A stretch of DNA of 30,541 bases, from the IMG/VR virus record IMGVR_UViG_3300031857_000935, positions 1 to 30,541 of that record; one strand, written 5' to 3'. Below the pieces are notes generated by a model, which had not been told where the DNA came from, did not search any database, and saw nothing but the letters and a program-made list of their open reading frames with translations. Positions within the stretch are counted from its first letter, which is position 1. Each line of letters begins with the position of its first letter. This DNA comes from a virus. This document shows, piece by piece, positions 4,964-30,541 of the stretch. Both the position numbers and the translations under genes were made by a program.

Positions 4964-5365
4964 TTAGGTTAGTTTATCTATTGCCGTTTCGACTAACGCA
5001 AGGAACGCGCGGACGGTCGTAGCCTCTTCGTCGATTACGTAGCTGCCAAGGTCTACCACGCCCAAAGACGTCGCGCTGGTTATTGTGAAAAAGCCAGCGC
5101 CGGGCGTGTAGCTTACTCGCAGTTCGCCTTTCGCCAAGGTTATACCGGACGCGTCGATTTTACCCGACCAGCTAAGCCCTAGCAGGTCGTCCGTGGTTCG
5201 CCCCGTCAGGATAGCCAAAACGCGCAGCTGGTCCGCGTCAAGCGTTCCGCCGCGTGCCAGTACGCGGTTAAGCGCGTTATACGGGTGCTTGTTACCCGGA
5301 AACAGGCGGGCCGCCACGTAGTCTATCCGCAGTCCGCTTTCGTCGATTATTTTCGATAGGTTCAT
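4964..5365 (-). CDS. Putative HTH-containing regulator or replication accessory protein
   Basis: 133 residues. The first 65 (MNLSKIIDESGLRIDYVAARLFPG...ALNRVLARGGTLDADQLRVLAILTGRTTDDLLGLSW) follow the spacing of an XRE-like helix-turn-helix domain. The remainder is beta-rich with an acidic, helical end. It is the first gene of the replication transcription unit and has a promoter-like site at 5386-5416 just upstream, so autoregulation is a reasonable guess. The HTH assignment rests on pattern only; the C-terminal part is not recognised. Confidence 0.65.
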   Translation of the reverse strand: MNLSKIIDESGLRIDYVAARLFPGNKHPYNALNRVLARGGTLDADQLRVLAILTGRTTDDLLGLSWSGKIDASGITLAKGELRVSYTPGAGFFTITSATSLGVVDLGSYVIDEEATTVRAFLALVETAIDKLT

Positions 5366-5385
5366 ATTTTTAACTTTGTTTAATG

Positions 5386-5416
5386 CAAAGCTAAAAAAGG
5401 TTTAATAAAAACCAAA
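5386..5416 (-). promoter_or_regulatory. Bacteroidota-type promoter for the replication operon
   Basis: Minus-strand TTTG (5413-5416) and, 19 bases on, TAGCTTTG (5386-5393), a perfect TAnnTTTG. The ATG at 5365 is about 21 bases downstream. It is the best -7 match in the window. Confidence 0.65.
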
Positions 5417-5509
5417 AGATTTTTTAAAAAATAGTCGCTTTGCTTCTTAAGCGCTTGATTATTCGTTAGTTTTAGTTTCTCATAGTGGTTAACGGGTTAG
5501 GACTATTCT

Positions 5510-5538
5510 AAAAGCGGGCGCAAAGTGTCCGCTTTTTT
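5510..5538 (+). terminator. Terminator-like hairpin just before the plus-strand ORF
   Basis: AAAAGCGG (5510-5517) pairs with CCGCTTTT (5529-5536) and the T run extends to 5538, the form of an intrinsic terminator on the plus strand. It ends 4 bases before the ATG at 5543, so it could act as an attenuator, or end a short upstream plus-strand RNA. The minus-strand version has only TTTT and would be weaker. Confidence 0.6.
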
Positions 5539-5542
5539 CGAT

Positions 5543-5704
5543 ATGAATAAAATCTATCTACTCATCACCGGCGAAAAAATACGCGCGTTTTATTCGCTTC
5601 GGCGGCTCGGCAAAGAGGCCGGACTGGTCATTAAAAAAGAAGACCTGCCATTAACGGCAGGCCCTGTAAAAATAATAGCGGTCGACGTTGATACTATGCT
5701 TTAG
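5543..5704 (+). CDS. 53-residue plus-strand ORF of unknown function
   Basis: ATG at 5543, TAG at 5702-5704. The product begins MNKIYLLITGEKIRAFYSLRRL and continues through KEAGLVIKKEDLP, a protein-like mix with alternating hydrophobic strand residues followed by a basic helix. It is one of only four small genes I find on the plus strand. Its end overlaps the end of the convergent minus-strand gene at 5694 by 11 bases, and its body contains that gene's terminator (5633-5661). The hairpin directly upstream could regulate it. I have an impression of similar short ORFs in Bacteroidota mobile elements but cannot confirm it. Moderate confidence that it is translated. Confidence 0.5.
   Translation: MNKIYLLITGEKIRAFYSLRRLGKEAGLVIKKEDLPLTAGPVKIIAVDVDTML
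5633..5661 (-). terminator. Rho-independent terminator at the end of the lysis operon
   Basis: On the minus strand CCTGCC pairs with GGCAGG around GTTAAT, followed by TCTTC and six T residues. It lies about 33 bases past the stop at 5694 and inside the convergent plus-strand ORF. Confidence 0.7.
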
Positions 5705-16729: not shown

Positions 16730-16870
16730 GTGTCTGATAAGGATCTTGATCAAATTAAAGTACACCTGCCGAAGGACTTAAAAAACAAGTTCGCCGCAAA
16801 GGTACGAAAGGAATCCAAGACCCAAACAGGCGTTATAAAATCGCTTATCCATAATTACCTAAATACCTAA
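16730..16870 (+). CDS. Ribbon-helix-helix (CopG/Arc-like) regulator
   Basis: GTG at 16730, TAA at 16868-16870, 46 residues. QIKVHLPKDLKNKFAAKVRK has the pattern of a ribbon-helix-helix domain: strand QIKVHLP, helix KDLKNKFAAKVRKES, turn, and second helix TQTGVIKSLIHNYL. Such dimers bind operator DNA in the major groove. It is divergent from the protease gene across 70 bases of AT-rich sequence, where it could control both directions. It is the first of three plus-strand genes; the next ATG follows 11 bases later. GTG is the only common start codon between the upstream in-frame stop and the conserved strand. A confident domain call for so small a protein. Confidence 0.75.
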   Translation: MSDKDLDQIKVHLPKDLKNKFAAKVRKESKTQTGVIKSLIHNYLNT

Positions 16871-24497: not shown

Positions 24498-25169
24498 TTA
24501 TTTTTTAGCCCCAGCGCTTTTCCGCCGTTCGATCTCCCGCAAATTTTCCTGAAAGCGGTTTTTGGCCAGCTGGTAGGTAAGTTCCAAATAGACTTCTTCG
24601 GCGGACCACTTGAAGACGTCGTAAGGTTTGCAGCCATATTTTCCCGCTAGGTTCTCGGCGATGCCGTACGGCCCGAAACTGTGGAGCGCCTCGACGCCTG
24701 CCTCTACTTCGTCCTCGTTCGGCGGTTCGCCTGCAAGGTCTTTGAAGCGTTCAAATAACGCGTTCAGGTCTTGATATATCAAAGCGCCCAGCGCAAGCAG
24801 CGGAGCGGCGGGACCCGTCACGTAAGCCGCGCCGTGGTAGATCCGCACCAACTCCAAGAAAAGCCGGTAAGGCGCTACGCCAGACGCCAGCGCGCGTTTA
24901 GCCAGTTCGGCCTTCTCGAAGCTGGCGGCCGCTACGTCGACGGCTGGCGGCGCCCAGTTAGCCGGTACGGCTAGCGCCGCTTCGGTTACGTCGTCTAGGT
25001 AGCTGAACAATTCGTAAAGCGCCAGGACGGCTTCGGAAGAAAGCGCTGCGACTTCTTCGGCCGTCAAGCCGCTAAGCGCTGCGATAACTTCGCGCGGCGT
25101 GTGGCGGCTGATCTTTAGAAGGTCTTCCGCCGTTACGGTTTTAAATGAATTCTTTATAGTGTTCGCCAC
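24498..25169 (-). CDS. Putative tail assembly chaperone (G-like)
   Basis: 223 residues, helical and Ala-rich. The C-terminal third (SFGPYGIAENLAGKYGCKPYDVFKWSAEEVYLELTYQLAKNRFQENLREIERRK) matches the pattern 'G.Y....LA......DV.......V...L..EK..YE.R' of the chaperone-type proteins encoded near the tape measure in Bacteroidota phages. It would coat the tape measure before tube assembly. It overlaps the terminase end by 29 bases. The last codons are AAA AAA TAA, with the -1 frame open into the next gene, reminiscent of the G/GT frameshift in tail chaperones. Function is inferred, not certain. Confidence 0.55.
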   Translation of the reverse strand: MANTIKNSFKTVTAEDLLKISRHTPREVIAALSGLTAEEVAALSSEAVLALYELFSYLDDVTEAALAVPANWAPPAVDVAAASFEKAELAKRALASGVAPYRLFLELVRIYHGAAYVTGPAAPLLALGALIYQDLNALFERFKDLAGEPPNEDEVEAGVEALHSFGPYGIAENLAGKYGCKPYDVFKWSAEEVYLELTYQLAKNRFQENLREIERRKSAGAKK

Positions 25170-26466
25170 GGGTTAGCTTTTTGGTACGTCCTATAGACTT
25201 CGATTTGTAATTAGGTTGGTAGCTGGTCAGGACGTGGATAGCGGCGTAACGCGTCGCGTCGATTGCGTGGTTATTCGCGTCCTGCGGAGCGTTTATAGCC
25301 GCGCCGGTCTTCCGGTCTTTCTCCCAAGTATAGGCCCGCAGTTCGGCGATTAGGTTTAAACTGGACTGCGTTACGCGGATGGGGTATGCTTGCAGCAAGT
25401 CGATCCCGAAGTTTACGGAATCTTTGCCCTTGTCCGCCGCTTGGATCCGGAAGCCGAAGCCGCTTATTTCCTTTATGCTTTTCGGCTCCGCGGCGTCCGC
25501 GTAAATTGGAACGTTGGTCTTTACGCCAAGCCGTTTGTATTCGGCGACTAGTTCGGAGTTAAGCAGGCCACGGCGGTAAATCAGTTCATCCAGAATAAGT
25601 TCACCGTCGTGGAGGTATAGCGCCACTAGGGCAGCGGGGTCGTTTGTGTATCCGAAGTCCTGCCCATAGGCCAGCAGCTTAGCGGCAAGCGGTACGGCGG
25701 CTATCTGGGTCCAATTCGAAAAGATGACGCCTTCTAGCGATCCGGTAAGTCCCATACCGAACACCCTCCACCAATTACACCAGTAGGCGCTTTTTACATT
25801 GTCTTCGGCAAACAGGGCTTCGCCTTCCAGCCATTCGTCGTGAAACGCTTTTGTGCGGTTCTTTTCGATCTCGCGGACTATCGACGGCGCCAGCGCTTCG
25901 TTATCCTTGTATGTCAGGCGGAGCGTTACGGCGTCGGGGTCGTTAGCCAGTTCGGTATCCGCCCAAAATTCGTTTGACGGGTTGTAATCTAGCCAGACTT
26001 CCTTATCGGTTCGGATTGCCAGCTGGTAATACGTATCAAAACTAATGCTATTACATTCGTTAATGTACAGGACGTTTCGACGCGGACCTCTTACGCGGCC
26101 TTCACTATCCGCACTAAAAAATTCAATATAGCTGCCGTTTGCAAACGTGTAAATCCGGTCGGTCTTATTATACCTGTCATCCATCCAGCGCCCCGTCGCA
26201 ATCATAAAAGCTTTAAAGTCTTTGATCGCACCTTTCTTCAAATGTGGGATACTTTCTGAAACGACGGAAATGGATAGGCCTGGCGACTTGATAGCCTGGT
26301 CGGCTAGTATCGGAAGAATCCCGAACGTTTTACCTGCGGACGTTCCGCCGGGTACTATGTACGTCCTAGCGCCTATTTTGCGGGCCGCCCTTAGCTTTTT
26401 TATTGCCGTGGTATATCGGAAGCCCTTGACGGCTTTAACCGTTGTCTGCTTCGCTGTCATCGGCAA
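25141..26466 (-). CDS. Terminase large subunit
   Basis: 441 residues. ATPase: Walker A GGTSAGKT (40-47), Walker B NVLYINE (131-137), and WLDYNPS (158-164). Nuclease (RNase H-like): YGQDFGYTNDPAAL with D270, PIYADAAEPKS with D324, and NNHAIDATRY with D403. All catalytic acids are in place. The family is the PBSX/Terminase_3 type. It cuts concatemeric DNA and powers packaging through the portal. The first Met lies 32 bases inside the small subunit gene; Met3 is an alternative start. Nothing at the sequence level says whether packaging is cos or headful. Confidence 0.95.
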   Translation of the reverse strand: MPMTAKQTTVKAVKGFRYTTAIKKLRAARKIGARTYIVPGGTSAGKTFGILPILADQAIKSPGLSISVVSESIPHLKKGAIKDFKAFMIATGRWMDDRYNKTDRIYTFANGSYIEFFSADSEGRVRGPRRNVLYINECNSISFDTYYQLAIRTDKEVWLDYNPSNEFWADTELANDPDAVTLRLTYKDNEALAPSIVREIEKNRTKAFHDEWLEGEALFAEDNVKSAYWCNWWRVFGMGLTGSLEGVIFSNWTQIAAVPLAAKLLAYGQDFGYTNDPAALVALYLHDGELILDELIYRRGLLNSELVAEYKRLGVKTNVPIYADAAEPKSIKEISGFGFRIQAADKGKDSVNFGIDLLQAYPIRVTQSSLNLIAELRAYTWEKDRKTGAAINAPQDANNHAIDATRYAAIHVLTSYQPNYKSKSIGRTKKLTRGEHYKEFI

Positions 26467-26779: not shown

Positions 26780-27964
26780 TTACCTCCAGTCGTTTGTTAC
26801 GTCTACGCCGTTACGCTTAACGGTTAAACTTGGATCTAATTTAAGCATTCGGTTGATAATTACGTCGCAATACTTCGGGTCGAGTTCCATGCCGTAGCAC
26901 TTTCTTTTAAGTTGGTGCGCCGCGACCATCGTGCTGCCGCTGCCGAGAAACGGCTCGAATAGTAAATCGTCAGCTATCGTGTGATTGTTTATACCGTACT
27001 CCCACATCTTAATGGGCTTCATGGTTGGGTGCTCCCTGTTTGCTGATGGCTTGTCAAAATCCCAAACAGTTGTTTTCGTCCTGTCGCTATTCTTCAGGCG
27101 CTGGCCGCCCTGCTTCCATCCAAATAAAATTGGTTCGTGCTTGTAGTGGTATTCTCCGTGGCCTAGTACCATACTCGATTTATTCCAAACCATAATCTGG
27201 CGCAACCATCCGCGCTCCAACCAATCGTTCGCAAATATGAGGTGCAACGGTCCCGCCGGGACCGTTGCCAGCAAATAGGCCCCTTCTCGAGTCACTAAAT
27301 CTACGTTCGAAAACCACGCCGTCACAAATTCTTTTAATTTTTCTGGGCTGCAATCGTCCGATTCTATTTTTAAAGAGTCTTTCGTCTTGCCTACGTAGGC
27401 TACCCCGTAAGGCGGATCGGTAAAAACCATGTCGGCTTTCTCCCCATTCATCAAATTGGCTACCTGATCGGAATCGGTACTGTCTCCGCAAAGCAATCTA
27501 TGCGGTCCGATTTCATACAGATCGCCCAGCACGGTTTTAGGCTCGCTAGGCGGTTCGGCGTCAAAGTCATCCTCCAAGGCCTCCAAAGTTTCTACGTGCA
27601 TGTCCGGCACGTCTAGGCCCCACGCCTGGAGTTCTTCGGTATCCCATTGGCTGGCTAACTGCCCCCAGTCCCAATCGCCAAAGCCGACGTTGTCCTTTAT
27701 GATAAATTGCTTCTGTTCGTCTTCGGTCAGGTCGTCCGCCAGTACGATCGGTACTTCTTTTAAGCCCGCCTCCTTGCAGGCCTTCAACCGCATGTTACCT
27801 CCCAGCACAATCATATCCGAATTGACTACTATCGGTCGGATCTCAAGCATTTTTGGAAAGTCCTGAATTGATTTAACTAGCTTTTTAAATTTCTCGTCTT
27901 TGATCGTCCGCGGGTTGTTCGGGTTCGGCCTTATCGCCGTCATTTTTACGGTTCTTATCTGCAT
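26780..27964 (-). CDS. ParB-like domain fused to a beta-class N6/N4 DNA methyltransferase
   Basis: 394 residues from the ATG at 27964. Residues 1-115 form a ParB/sulfiredoxin-like domain (LGGNMRLKACKEAGLKEVPIVLADDLTEDEQKQFIIKDN, 54-92). Residues about 145-394 are an amino-methyltransferase with DPPY (183-186) before FEPFLGSGST (336-345), followed by MELDPKY; this order is that of the beta class. It should methylate adenine N6 or cytosine N4 in phage or host DNA. The open frame extends 52 codons further upstream, but that part runs through the repeat region and the promoter-like site at 27986-28017, so the shorter start is preferred. It leads the terminase operon. Confidence 0.88.
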   Translation of the reverse strand: MQIRTVKMTAIRPNPNNPRTIKDEKFKKLVKSIQDFPKMLEIRPIVVNSDMIVLGGNMRLKACKEAGLKEVPIVLADDLTEDEQKQFIIKDNVGFGDWDWGQLASQWDTEELQAWGLDVPDMHVETLEALEDDFDAEPPSEPKTVLGDLYEIGPHRLLCGDSTDSDQVANLMNGEKADMVFTDPPYGVAYVGKTKDSLKIESDDCSPEKLKEFVTAWFSNVDLVTREGAYLLATVPAGPLHLIFANDWLERGWLRQIMVWNKSSMVLGHGEYHYKHEPILFGWKQGGQRLKNSDRTKTTVWDFDKPSANREHPTMKPIKMWEYGINNHTIADDLLFEPFLGSGSTMVAAHQLKRKCYGMELDPKYCDVIINRMLKLDPSLTVKRNGVDVTNDWR

Positions 27965-27985: not shown

Positions 27986-28017
27986 CAATTCTACACCAAA
28001 AAGGCGAAAAAAGCAAT
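27986..28017 (-). promoter_or_regulatory. Promoter-like site for the methyltransferase-terminase operon
   Basis: Minus-strand ATTG (28014-28017), 20 bases, then TAGAATTG (27986-27993). The match to TAnnTTTG is imperfect, but the spacing equals that of the other sites. The ATG at 27964 is about 22 bases downstream. A repeat site (28017-28028) abuts the -33 box. Confidence 0.45.
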
Positions 28018-28311
28018 TGTAAACAAAGCCACCTAAAGTAAAGCTTTTGTGTTTACGCGTAACGTGTTGATAATCATCGGGGTAATGGGGGTTGTAAACA
28101 AAGTAAACACAAATTCCCATATTATCCTTGGGACGTTAGGGGTGTAGTGTTTTCAGTACTGTATTTCCTCGCGTGTATATGCCTATGCCCCCCTCTTCTT
28201 TATATTATTTATATATTTATTGTTTACCATTACTATATAGGGATAACAGTAAGTAAGTCAAGCAGTTACGTTGTAAACACAAAGGTAAACAAAACAGATT
28301 TGTGTTTACAA
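28017..28311. repeat. Dispersed GTAAACA / TGTTTAC repeats
   Basis: Sites at 28017-28028 (TTGTAAACAAAG), 28044-28056 (TTTTGTGTTTAC), 28091-28113 (two overlapping copies), 28218-28228 and 28271-28311 (three copies). The last includes TTGTAAACACAAA (28271-28283) and its perfect 13-bp inverted partner TTTGTGTTTACAA (28299-28311). I saw no comparable cluster elsewhere in the window. Confidence 0.85.
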
Positions 28312-28312
28312 G

Positions 28313-28341
28313 CAAAAAACAAAAAAGCGCCCTGAGGCGCT
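28313..28341 (-). terminator. Terminator after the small early genes
   Basis: On the minus strand AGCGCC pairs with GGCGCT around TCAG, followed by six T residues, G, and six more T residues. It lies 12 bases after the stop of the 74-residue gene. Confidence 0.85.
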
Positions 28342-28352
28342 CCAAATGCAGT

Positions 28353-29045: not shown

Positions 29046-30464
29046 TTAAATATATTTTTTCACAATATCCCGCACCGCTTCAATCATTGACTTTTCCGCC
29101 TTAACGGCGATCAGTAGTTCGGCCTCCGTCCCGTCCTTCTCCGCCAGCGAACTAACCACGCGCTCGTCGATAGTACCCGCCGCGATTAGGCGATAAATAA
29201 AAACCTGTTTAGCCTTTTGCCCTTGCCTCCACAATCGAGCGATAAGCTGCTTATAAAGTTCAAGAGACCAGTTAAGACCGAACCAGACTACATAATTACC
29301 GCCGTGCTGAATGTTTAGACCGTGGCCACCGCTGGCGGGATGGAGAATAAGCATATCGACTTTCCCGGCGTTCCAGTCGTCTATGTCTTTCTGCCCGTCT
29401 AAAACGCGGGCGTCGATCTTCTTACCGAATCGTTTCAAGATCCGCGCGGCGTCGTGTCGGAAAGCTACGGCGACTAGCAGCGGCTTACCGTTCGCCGCTT
29501 CGCGTATCTCCTCCAGCGCTTCCAGCTTCATTTCGTGGACTTCGTGTACGGCCTTGGCTTCATCGTAAACCGCGCCGTTCGCGAATTGCAAAAGCTTATT
29601 CGAAAGCGCCGCGGCGGTCGCTACGCTTATTTCCTTTTCGCCTAATTCGCTTAGCAGGCTCAGAACTTGTTCGCGTTCGAAATCTTTGTACTTCTTCGCC
29701 AGTTCTTCGTCGAAGTCTAGCCGCTGGTCTATTACCAGCTTTTCGGGCATATCCAGAAAGTCTTCCGCCTTCATCGAAATACAGACATCGCCGATAGCCT
29801 GGTAAATCCGATCCGTAACGCTAGCGTCCTTTAGTTTGTAGCTATACACGATGTGGCCGCTTTGCTTATCTGGTCGGAAGTACGCCTCGCGATAGCGCCC
29901 TATGCTATGCCCTAGGCGCTCGCCGCCATCCAATAGATAGACCTGCGCCCAAAGATCAACCAGGCCGTTAGGCGCGGGCGTACCGGTCAAACCTACCACG
30001 CGGCCTACCGACTTGCGGACGCGCTTAAGCGCCTTAAAGCGCTGGCTCTGGTGGTTCTTGAAGCTGCTAAGTTCGTCAAGGATTAGCATATCGAACGGCA
30101 GGAAACTGCCGCCGTACTGGTCGCATAACCACGCGACATTATCGCGGCTTACTAGGTACACGTCCGCCGTGGCGTCGATAGCCTTTTTCCGCTGCTTCGG
30201 CGTACCCGCGATAAGGCTAAAGGATAGCCCTGCGGTATGCGCCCACTTTAGCGCCTCCTGCGTCCATACACTTTCGACGACACGCTTTGGTCCCACGACC
30301 AGCACGCGGTCGACCTCTAGGCTATTGATCAGTTCGCGGATAGCGGTAAGCGTCGTTACCGTTTTGCCCAGCCCCATATCAAGGAAAAGACCTGCAGCTT
30401 CGTTTTTAAGGATATGCTGAACGCCGAAGCGCTGGTAGCTATGGAGGTTTTCAGGGCTTAACAT
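29046..30464 (-). CDS. SNF2-type superfamily 2 helicase/ATPase
   Basis: 472 residues. Motif I DMGLGKT (29-35), motif II LDELSSFKN (129-137, a DEL[S] variant of DEAH), motif III GLTGTPAPN (158-166), and a C-terminal RecA-like lobe ending in motif VI QLIARLWRQGQ (406-416). The Q-like start (NLHSYQRFGVQHILKN) is typical of the short phage SNF2-like helicases that accompany family A polymerases and DUF2800/DUF2815 proteins. It probably remodels or unwinds DNA at replication forks. The ATG overlaps the end of the preceding ORF by 14 bases, so the two are coupled. Confidence 0.9.
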   Translation of the reverse strand: MLSPENLHSYQRFGVQHILKNEAAGLFLDMGLGKTVTTLTAIRELINSLEVDRVLVVGPKRVVESVWTQEALKWAHTAGLSFSLIAGTPKQRKKAIDATADVYLVSRDNVAWLCDQYGGSFLPFDMLILDELSSFKNHQSQRFKALKRVRKSVGRVVGLTGTPAPNGLVDLWAQVYLLDGGERLGHSIGRYREAYFRPDKQSGHIVYSYKLKDASVTDRIYQAIGDVCISMKAEDFLDMPEKLVIDQRLDFDEELAKKYKDFEREQVLSLLSELGEKEISVATAAALSNKLLQFANGAVYDEAKAVHEVHEMKLEALEEIREAANGKPLLVAVAFRHDAARILKRFGKKIDARVLDGQKDIDDWNAGKVDMLILHPASGGHGLNIQHGGNYVVWFGLNWSLELYKQLIARLWRQGQKAKQVFIYRLIAAGTIDERVVSSLAEKDGTEAELLIAVKAEKSMIEAVRDIVKKYI

Positions 30465-30541
30465 ATCCCACGACGGTTAGCGTTAAGTCCAAAGCGGCCT
30501 CAGTACCCACCACGAAGACGTGAAAGCCTAGTTTTCTAAGC
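30451..30541 (-). CDS. C-terminal end of an unidentified gene (cut by the window edge)
   Basis: The only frame open to the right edge on the minus strand. About 29 residues are visible, LRKLGFHVFVVGTEAALDLT followed by LTVVGYVKP and TGA at 30451-30453. The stop lies inside the helicase gene start, so it was translated with it. In many phages with this replication module a VRR-NUC nuclease precedes the SNF2 helicase, and a 'G..V.VV...EAAL' end is compatible with that, but the fragment is too short to decide. Confidence 0.5.
   Translation of the reverse strand, partial: LRKLGFHVFVVGTEAALDLTLTVVGYVKP

Follow-up and report, generated by a model that had tools for sequence, protein, structure and literature searches.

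A putative PICI-type iteron origin of replication in VapE phages, placed ahead of the packaging operon in one lineage

The window, that is, the whole 30,541-nucleotide stretch of viral DNA analysed here (IMG/VR record IMGVR_UViG_3300031857_000935), carries a compact element at 28017–28311 that is very probably the phage's origin of replication. It consists of eight exact copies of GTAAACA/TGTTTAC (iterons) in both orientations within 291 bp (28019–28309), and its sites are kept in a close relative. We propose, with good confidence, that it is an iteron origin of the type found in phage-inducible islands (PICI/SaPI type), the iterons of which a VapE primase-helicase recognises through its C-terminal winged helix. 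Elements of this kind, with differing words, occur beside a VapE-type helicase gene in dozens of further phages. The original prediction had offered two readings of the cluster, an origin built of iterons and an AT-rich stretch, or the master operator of a repressor. The first has gained strong comparative support, while the association of the element with vapE, mostly inside the replication operon, speaks against the second.

Architecture and conservation of the iteron element

The expected density of at least eight motif copies in about 300 bases and two orientations was borne out by the counts. In a scan of all 7-mers, GTAAACA was the top clustered word of the window, with 8 copies per 300 bp compared with 5 for the runner-up. 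The log10 E of the cluster, calculated on an order-1 background and corrected for all words and positions, is −9.7, whereas the best other place in the window gives +0.8 and the minimum among 20 order-1 simulated windows was −0.8. Nor is the motif frequent elsewhere, a check on which the original prediction depended: three further copies are present in the other 30 kb (9976, 15221 and 20466), and the total of 11 was reached in none of 100 shuffles, which give 3.5 copies per whole 30,541-base record. Another word, AAGGCCT, is over-represented (19 copies versus 5 expected from shuffles) and is dispersed over the genome. The cluster had also been said to occupy the only long gene-free region. This was true only in part, as 5366–5693 is likewise without long ORFs, but the region is the sole one of its kind that holds the motif.

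The right-hand end of the element is a perfect 13-bp inverted repeat (28271–28283/28299–28311), found just as predicted with a third motif copy in its loop. Iteron 1 (28303–28309, − strand) lies in the outer arm, iteron 2 (28285–28291, + strand) in the loop and iteron 3 (28273–28279, + strand) in the other arm, and the 12-bp spacing between iterons 2 and 3 recurs in L090, L097, L174 and other relatives. The AT-rich stretch anticipated between the groups of sites, a putative unwinding element, was located at 28196–28245; it is the AT-richest 50 bp of the element (84% AT), ranks in the top 0.34% of the 50-mers of the window, and is flanked by GTAAACA sites on both sides, with sites likewise flanking this stretch in most of the 30 elements compared. 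Iteron 4 (28221–28227, − strand) lies within it and faces, over a 111-bp gap without sites, iterons 5 (28103–28109, + strand) and 6 (28094–28100, + strand), which form a direct pair with 9-bp spacing. The site-free centre contains a CGCG box (28170–28173; CACGCGAGG on the − strand). Beyond the direct pair are an IHF-consensus-like site, TATCAACACGTTA (WATCARNNNNTTR; 28060–28072, − strand), iteron 7 (28050–28056, − strand) and iteron 8 (28019–28025, + strand).

Much of this anatomy is general. In 17 of the 30 elements the AT-richest 50-mer falls within the largest site-free gap, and in a further six it has sites on either side; CGCG is enriched (17 elements versus 7.8 expected), and so are IHF-consensus-like sites (10 versus 1.7 expected). 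Sites at the two edges of the gap point towards each other in about 20 of 25 elements, as judged by eye with one orientation chosen per word, an arrangement that would suit two helicase assemblies opposed across a melting region. The largest site-free gap has a median of 104.5 bp; by rough calculation, random placing of eight sites in 300 bp gives a similar mean, for which reason the distance is not taken as evidence by itself.

Conservation of the sites in close relatives, the other check on which the prediction hung, is seen in L091, which is 94.7% identical over 1.4 kb: none of the 56 site bases is changed, compared with 16 of 333 other intergenic bases. GTAAACA is also retained in L093 and L094. 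Other relatives have the same layout with another word, namely GGCAACA (L089, L090 and L092), GGAAACA (L099 and L100), CACACAA (L105) and TAAACAA (L176). A word that is switched at all sites together while the layout is kept points to sites that co-evolve with a single reader.

Linkage to vapE and the presumed reader

Nearly all long genes of the window are on the − strand, where the order is a SNF2 helicase gene (29046–30464), two small genes, an intrinsic terminator (28324–28343, − strand) that closes the upstream (replication) operon just ahead of the element, the element, a ParB_N/N6-N4 methylase gene (26780–27964), terS and terL. The contig end cuts a VRR-NUC-like gene of which the C-terminal end is present (30451–30541, − strand), and the contig resumes near the 3′ end of polA (1–187). 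In relatives, the stretch missing from the contig, from VRR-NUC to polA, encodes a VapE primase-helicase. On the gene order of these relatives vapE is expected just beyond the contig end, and the window record is therefore short of several kilobases. The original prediction had noted no initiator gene and concluded that the binding protein would be a new partner. That conclusion finds no support, since the initiator gene expected from relatives, vapE, lies outside the sequenced part of the contig.

The gene with which the element travels was sought in two scans. The first was unbiased and took the best 7-mer cluster of each whole locus. This cluster lies upstream of terS in the lineage of the window, and mostly in the gap in loci that have a vapE/VRR-NUC gap. 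The element is found in this gap in the isolates phiFL4A (GTATCCA, ten sites) and Bacteroides F4 (CGTTTAC, eleven sites), and upstream of terS in P2559Y and BK687P3. In the second scan, loci were picked by VapE similarity alone, and 28 of 33 non-redundant loci had a significant cluster. With about 20 different words, it lay at most 450 bp 3′ of vapE in 20 of these 28, a zone that makes up about 2–3% of each locus. No significant exact-7-mer cluster was present in the remaining five VapE-chosen loci, nor in L180–L184 by the whole-locus scan. Three genomes with homologous TerL in which VapE was undetected (Fpv5, L104 and L101) have no comparable cluster, their best log10 E of −2.1 being at about simulation level. 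The clusters adjacent to vapE and the cluster-free Fpv5, L104 and L101 together make the element part of the replication module: judged from gene order, it goes with the replication gene vapE (primase-helicase) and not with the packaging genes. In the lineage of the window, where the element is found 4–5 kb from vapE and before terS instead of adjacent to the 3′ end of the rep/pri-rep gene, the putative origin has shifted some 4–5 kb downstream and now precedes the packaging operon.

The phage's own VapE helicase is probably the reader of the iterons. The VapE of the window lies beyond the contig, and that of its relatives is homologous to PriRep1 of SaPI. The helicase half of VapE matches PriRep1 (7pds, with dsDNA) with a phmmer E of 3e-72, and 7pds is also the closest solved structure (Foldseek E 4.5e-32, TM 0.72–0.79). 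The AlphaFold model of VapE (mean pLDDT 85.5) has a C-terminal winged helix, and in SaPI Rep the iterons are read by the C-terminal domain (PMC7581432). In a set of 50 dereplicated elements, the similarity of the iterons rises with the identity of the winged helices (r 0.26), a modest covariation that was found after the hypothesis had been formed and with one similarity measure. The partial correlation given the helicase core is 0.235 (exceeded in 0 of 2000 permutations), while that with the helicase core given the winged helix is −0.05, and in a sliding control on 49 elements the 60-column segments not overlapping the winged helix gave −0.13 to 0.07, so that within the C-terminal half of VapE only the winged helix follows the iterons. 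Phages that share a word can differ considerably in their winged helix.

We propose that the winged helix of VapE binds the GTAAACA iterons and that the primase-helicase would assemble on both iteron groups, melt the AT-rich stretch between them and load itself as the replicative helicase, in which case replication would start at the element. This is the reported mode of action of Rep/PriRep in staphylococcal and other phage-inducible islands.

GC skew, considered as proof of an origin, gave a mixed picture. In the set of loci with the element in the vapE gap, GC3 skew shifts at the element in 21 of 24 loci, which are partly related and differ in gene content across the two sides; against controls this gave p = 0.005 uncorrected for relatedness, and 0.13 with neighbouring genes only. 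In the lineage of the window GC skew gave no support, the shift being mostly absent or opposite in sign.

Alternative functions of the element

The element could instead be an operator through which one repressor or activator, bound at several sites, governs the late methylase/terS/terL operon. It follows the terminator of the replication operon and precedes the packaging operon, and a Bacteroidota-type promoter match, TTG-N21-TACCTTTG (28280–28311, − strand), lies in the 13-bp inverted repeat and overlaps iterons 1 and 2. The window has two such matches versus 0.36 expected. The TAnnTTTG part of this one is retained in L091, and the match was not seen in L097 or L090; it is possibly the rightful promoter of the methylase/terS/terL operon. 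Two regulators had been proposed as partners, an HTH-like protein (4964–5365, − strand) and a small RHH-like ORF (16733–16870, + strand, opposite to nearly all genes). The former has no match in Pfam or PHROG and has homologues in P2559Y (32%) and TCUEAP1 (31%), and the latter has a 77% identical homologue in L095 (4940–4812). Nothing ties either protein to the sites. Against an operator speak the position of the equivalent element in most VapE phages, between vapE and VRR-NUC and not at a late promoter, and the covariation of the word with the winged helix of VapE. It would also be unusual for an operator to have eight to 12 sites spread over 300 bp on either side of an AT-rich stretch, and the other operons of the window have no exact site upstream. 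We consider this alternative unlikely. A regulatory role in addition to that of an origin is possible, given that the promoter-like match overlaps two iterons, and binding of the reader may for this reason also affect late transcription. The position of the match in the inverted repeat might thereby link initiation with late transcription.

An origin with a different reader, another phage or host protein in place of VapE, is equally doubtful. The VapE of the window is itself unseen, and SNF2 helicase, VRR-NUC, PolA and SSB travel in the same module. The covariation, however, is specific to the winged helix of VapE and does not extend to the adjacent helicase core, and it is the homologous Rep proteins that read the iterons of PICIs (PMC7581432). 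A DnaA-dependent origin was rejected, since DnaA boxes (at most one mismatch) were not enriched, occurring in 5 of the 30 elements versus 3.2 expected.

A packaging site (cos/pac) bound by the small terminase subunit would account for the position of the element directly ahead of terS in most of the window's relatives and for its IHF-like site, the cosB of known phages being composed of repeats near an IHF site. Words and TerS families, however, do not go together. The TerS proteins of the window and of L094 have no detectable similarity (E > 0.1), yet both phages have GTAAACA, whereas L174 and L090, whose TerS proteins share 72% identity, differ in their words (GTAAACAA, GGCAACAA). Furthermore, the element is absent in phages with homologous TerL but without vapE, and is not beside terS in the vapE-gap phages. 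A packaging site was rejected as very improbable.

Two last readings, an attP-like recombination site with arm-type sites and a partition site for the adjacent ParB_N/methylase, were dismissed as having only a slight chance: two repeat groups around a core with an IHF-like site do resemble attP, and the neighbouring gene does have a ParB_N domain, but no integrase was noticed among the long ORFs of the window when the gene list was inspected, the integrase of phiFL4A lies 13 kb from the phiFL4A element, and L090, L092, L093 and L094 have the element without a methylase between it and terS. The methylase gene, which holds this position in the window and L091, looks like an insertion. Its closest relatives are in phages without the element, and it proved of no use as a guide to the element, as relatives found through it have no common sites and the methylase is widely exchanged.

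Relation to known origins and occurrence in phages

With VapE as the presumed reader, the closest counterparts of the element are the PICI origins (SaPI, EfCIV583 and EcCICFT073, with Rep/Pri-Rep), in which an AT-rich stretch is likewise flanked by two groups of short iterons, with words that differ between elements and a helicase homologous to VapE (7pds PriRep1), and which usually lie directly 3′ of the primase-helicase gene. Unlike these, the elements described here are in phage genomes with PolA, VRR-NUC and SNF2 helicase, and in the lineage of the window the putative origin is apart from vapE, before terS. Because the element of the window would work like a PICI origin but is not adjacent to its initiator gene, it is classed as a variant and not as a strict member. 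The alpha protein of satellite phage P4 is a primase, helicase and origin-binding protein with short iterons of its own (ori/crr), which are in two separate regions some kilobases apart, whereas the window has one compact element. Pri-Rep is distantly homologous to P4 proteins (PMC6092414). In the putative origin of SCCmec, the self-loading helicase Cch2 likewise acts on direct repeats downstream of its gene (PMC7581432), although there are only three iterons of 5 nt and Cch2 belongs to the D5_N/Primase_Cterm group, in contrast to VapE (PF05272) here. Lambdoid origins resemble the element in combining phage iterons, bound by the O protein, with an AT-rich region. The lambda origin lies inside the O gene and has longer, direct-repeat iterons on one side, and O recruits the DnaB of the host.

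This origin layout has been described in print as peculiar to phage-inducible islands, a view that, on these comparisons, appears too narrow. We lean towards the view that PICI-type iteron origins are the general origin of many VapE phages, in Bacteroidota and other hosts, in which the word evolves fast with the winged helix of VapE, the layout (facing pairs about 105 bp apart and an AT-rich centre with CGCG) is preserved, and the origin may become separated from the initiator gene. For the majority of phages, to our knowledge, the origin is undescribed. A layout recognisable from sequence alone and tied to one helicase family would allow origins to be predicted in many of them, and would connect the replication of phages with that of their satellite parasites. 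The words paired with their winged helices would provide a natural data set for the recognition code of self-loading helicases, and the pairing predicts which phages and islands are able to share, or compete for, an initiator. Subscription papers aside, no literature joining VapE and iterons in phages was found, and a prior description is possible.

Some phages depart from the two common locations of the element. TCUEAP1 (L261) has two groups of TTGAGAC sites, one at 24888–25211 (intergenic, after the gene for an M15 peptidase) and one at 240–372 (upstream of terS), which may both be origins, or one an origin and the other a control site. A third location is seen in the VapE phages L266, L269 and L300, whose best cluster (TAAACAA/AAACAAT) is found some 8 kb upstream of vapE.
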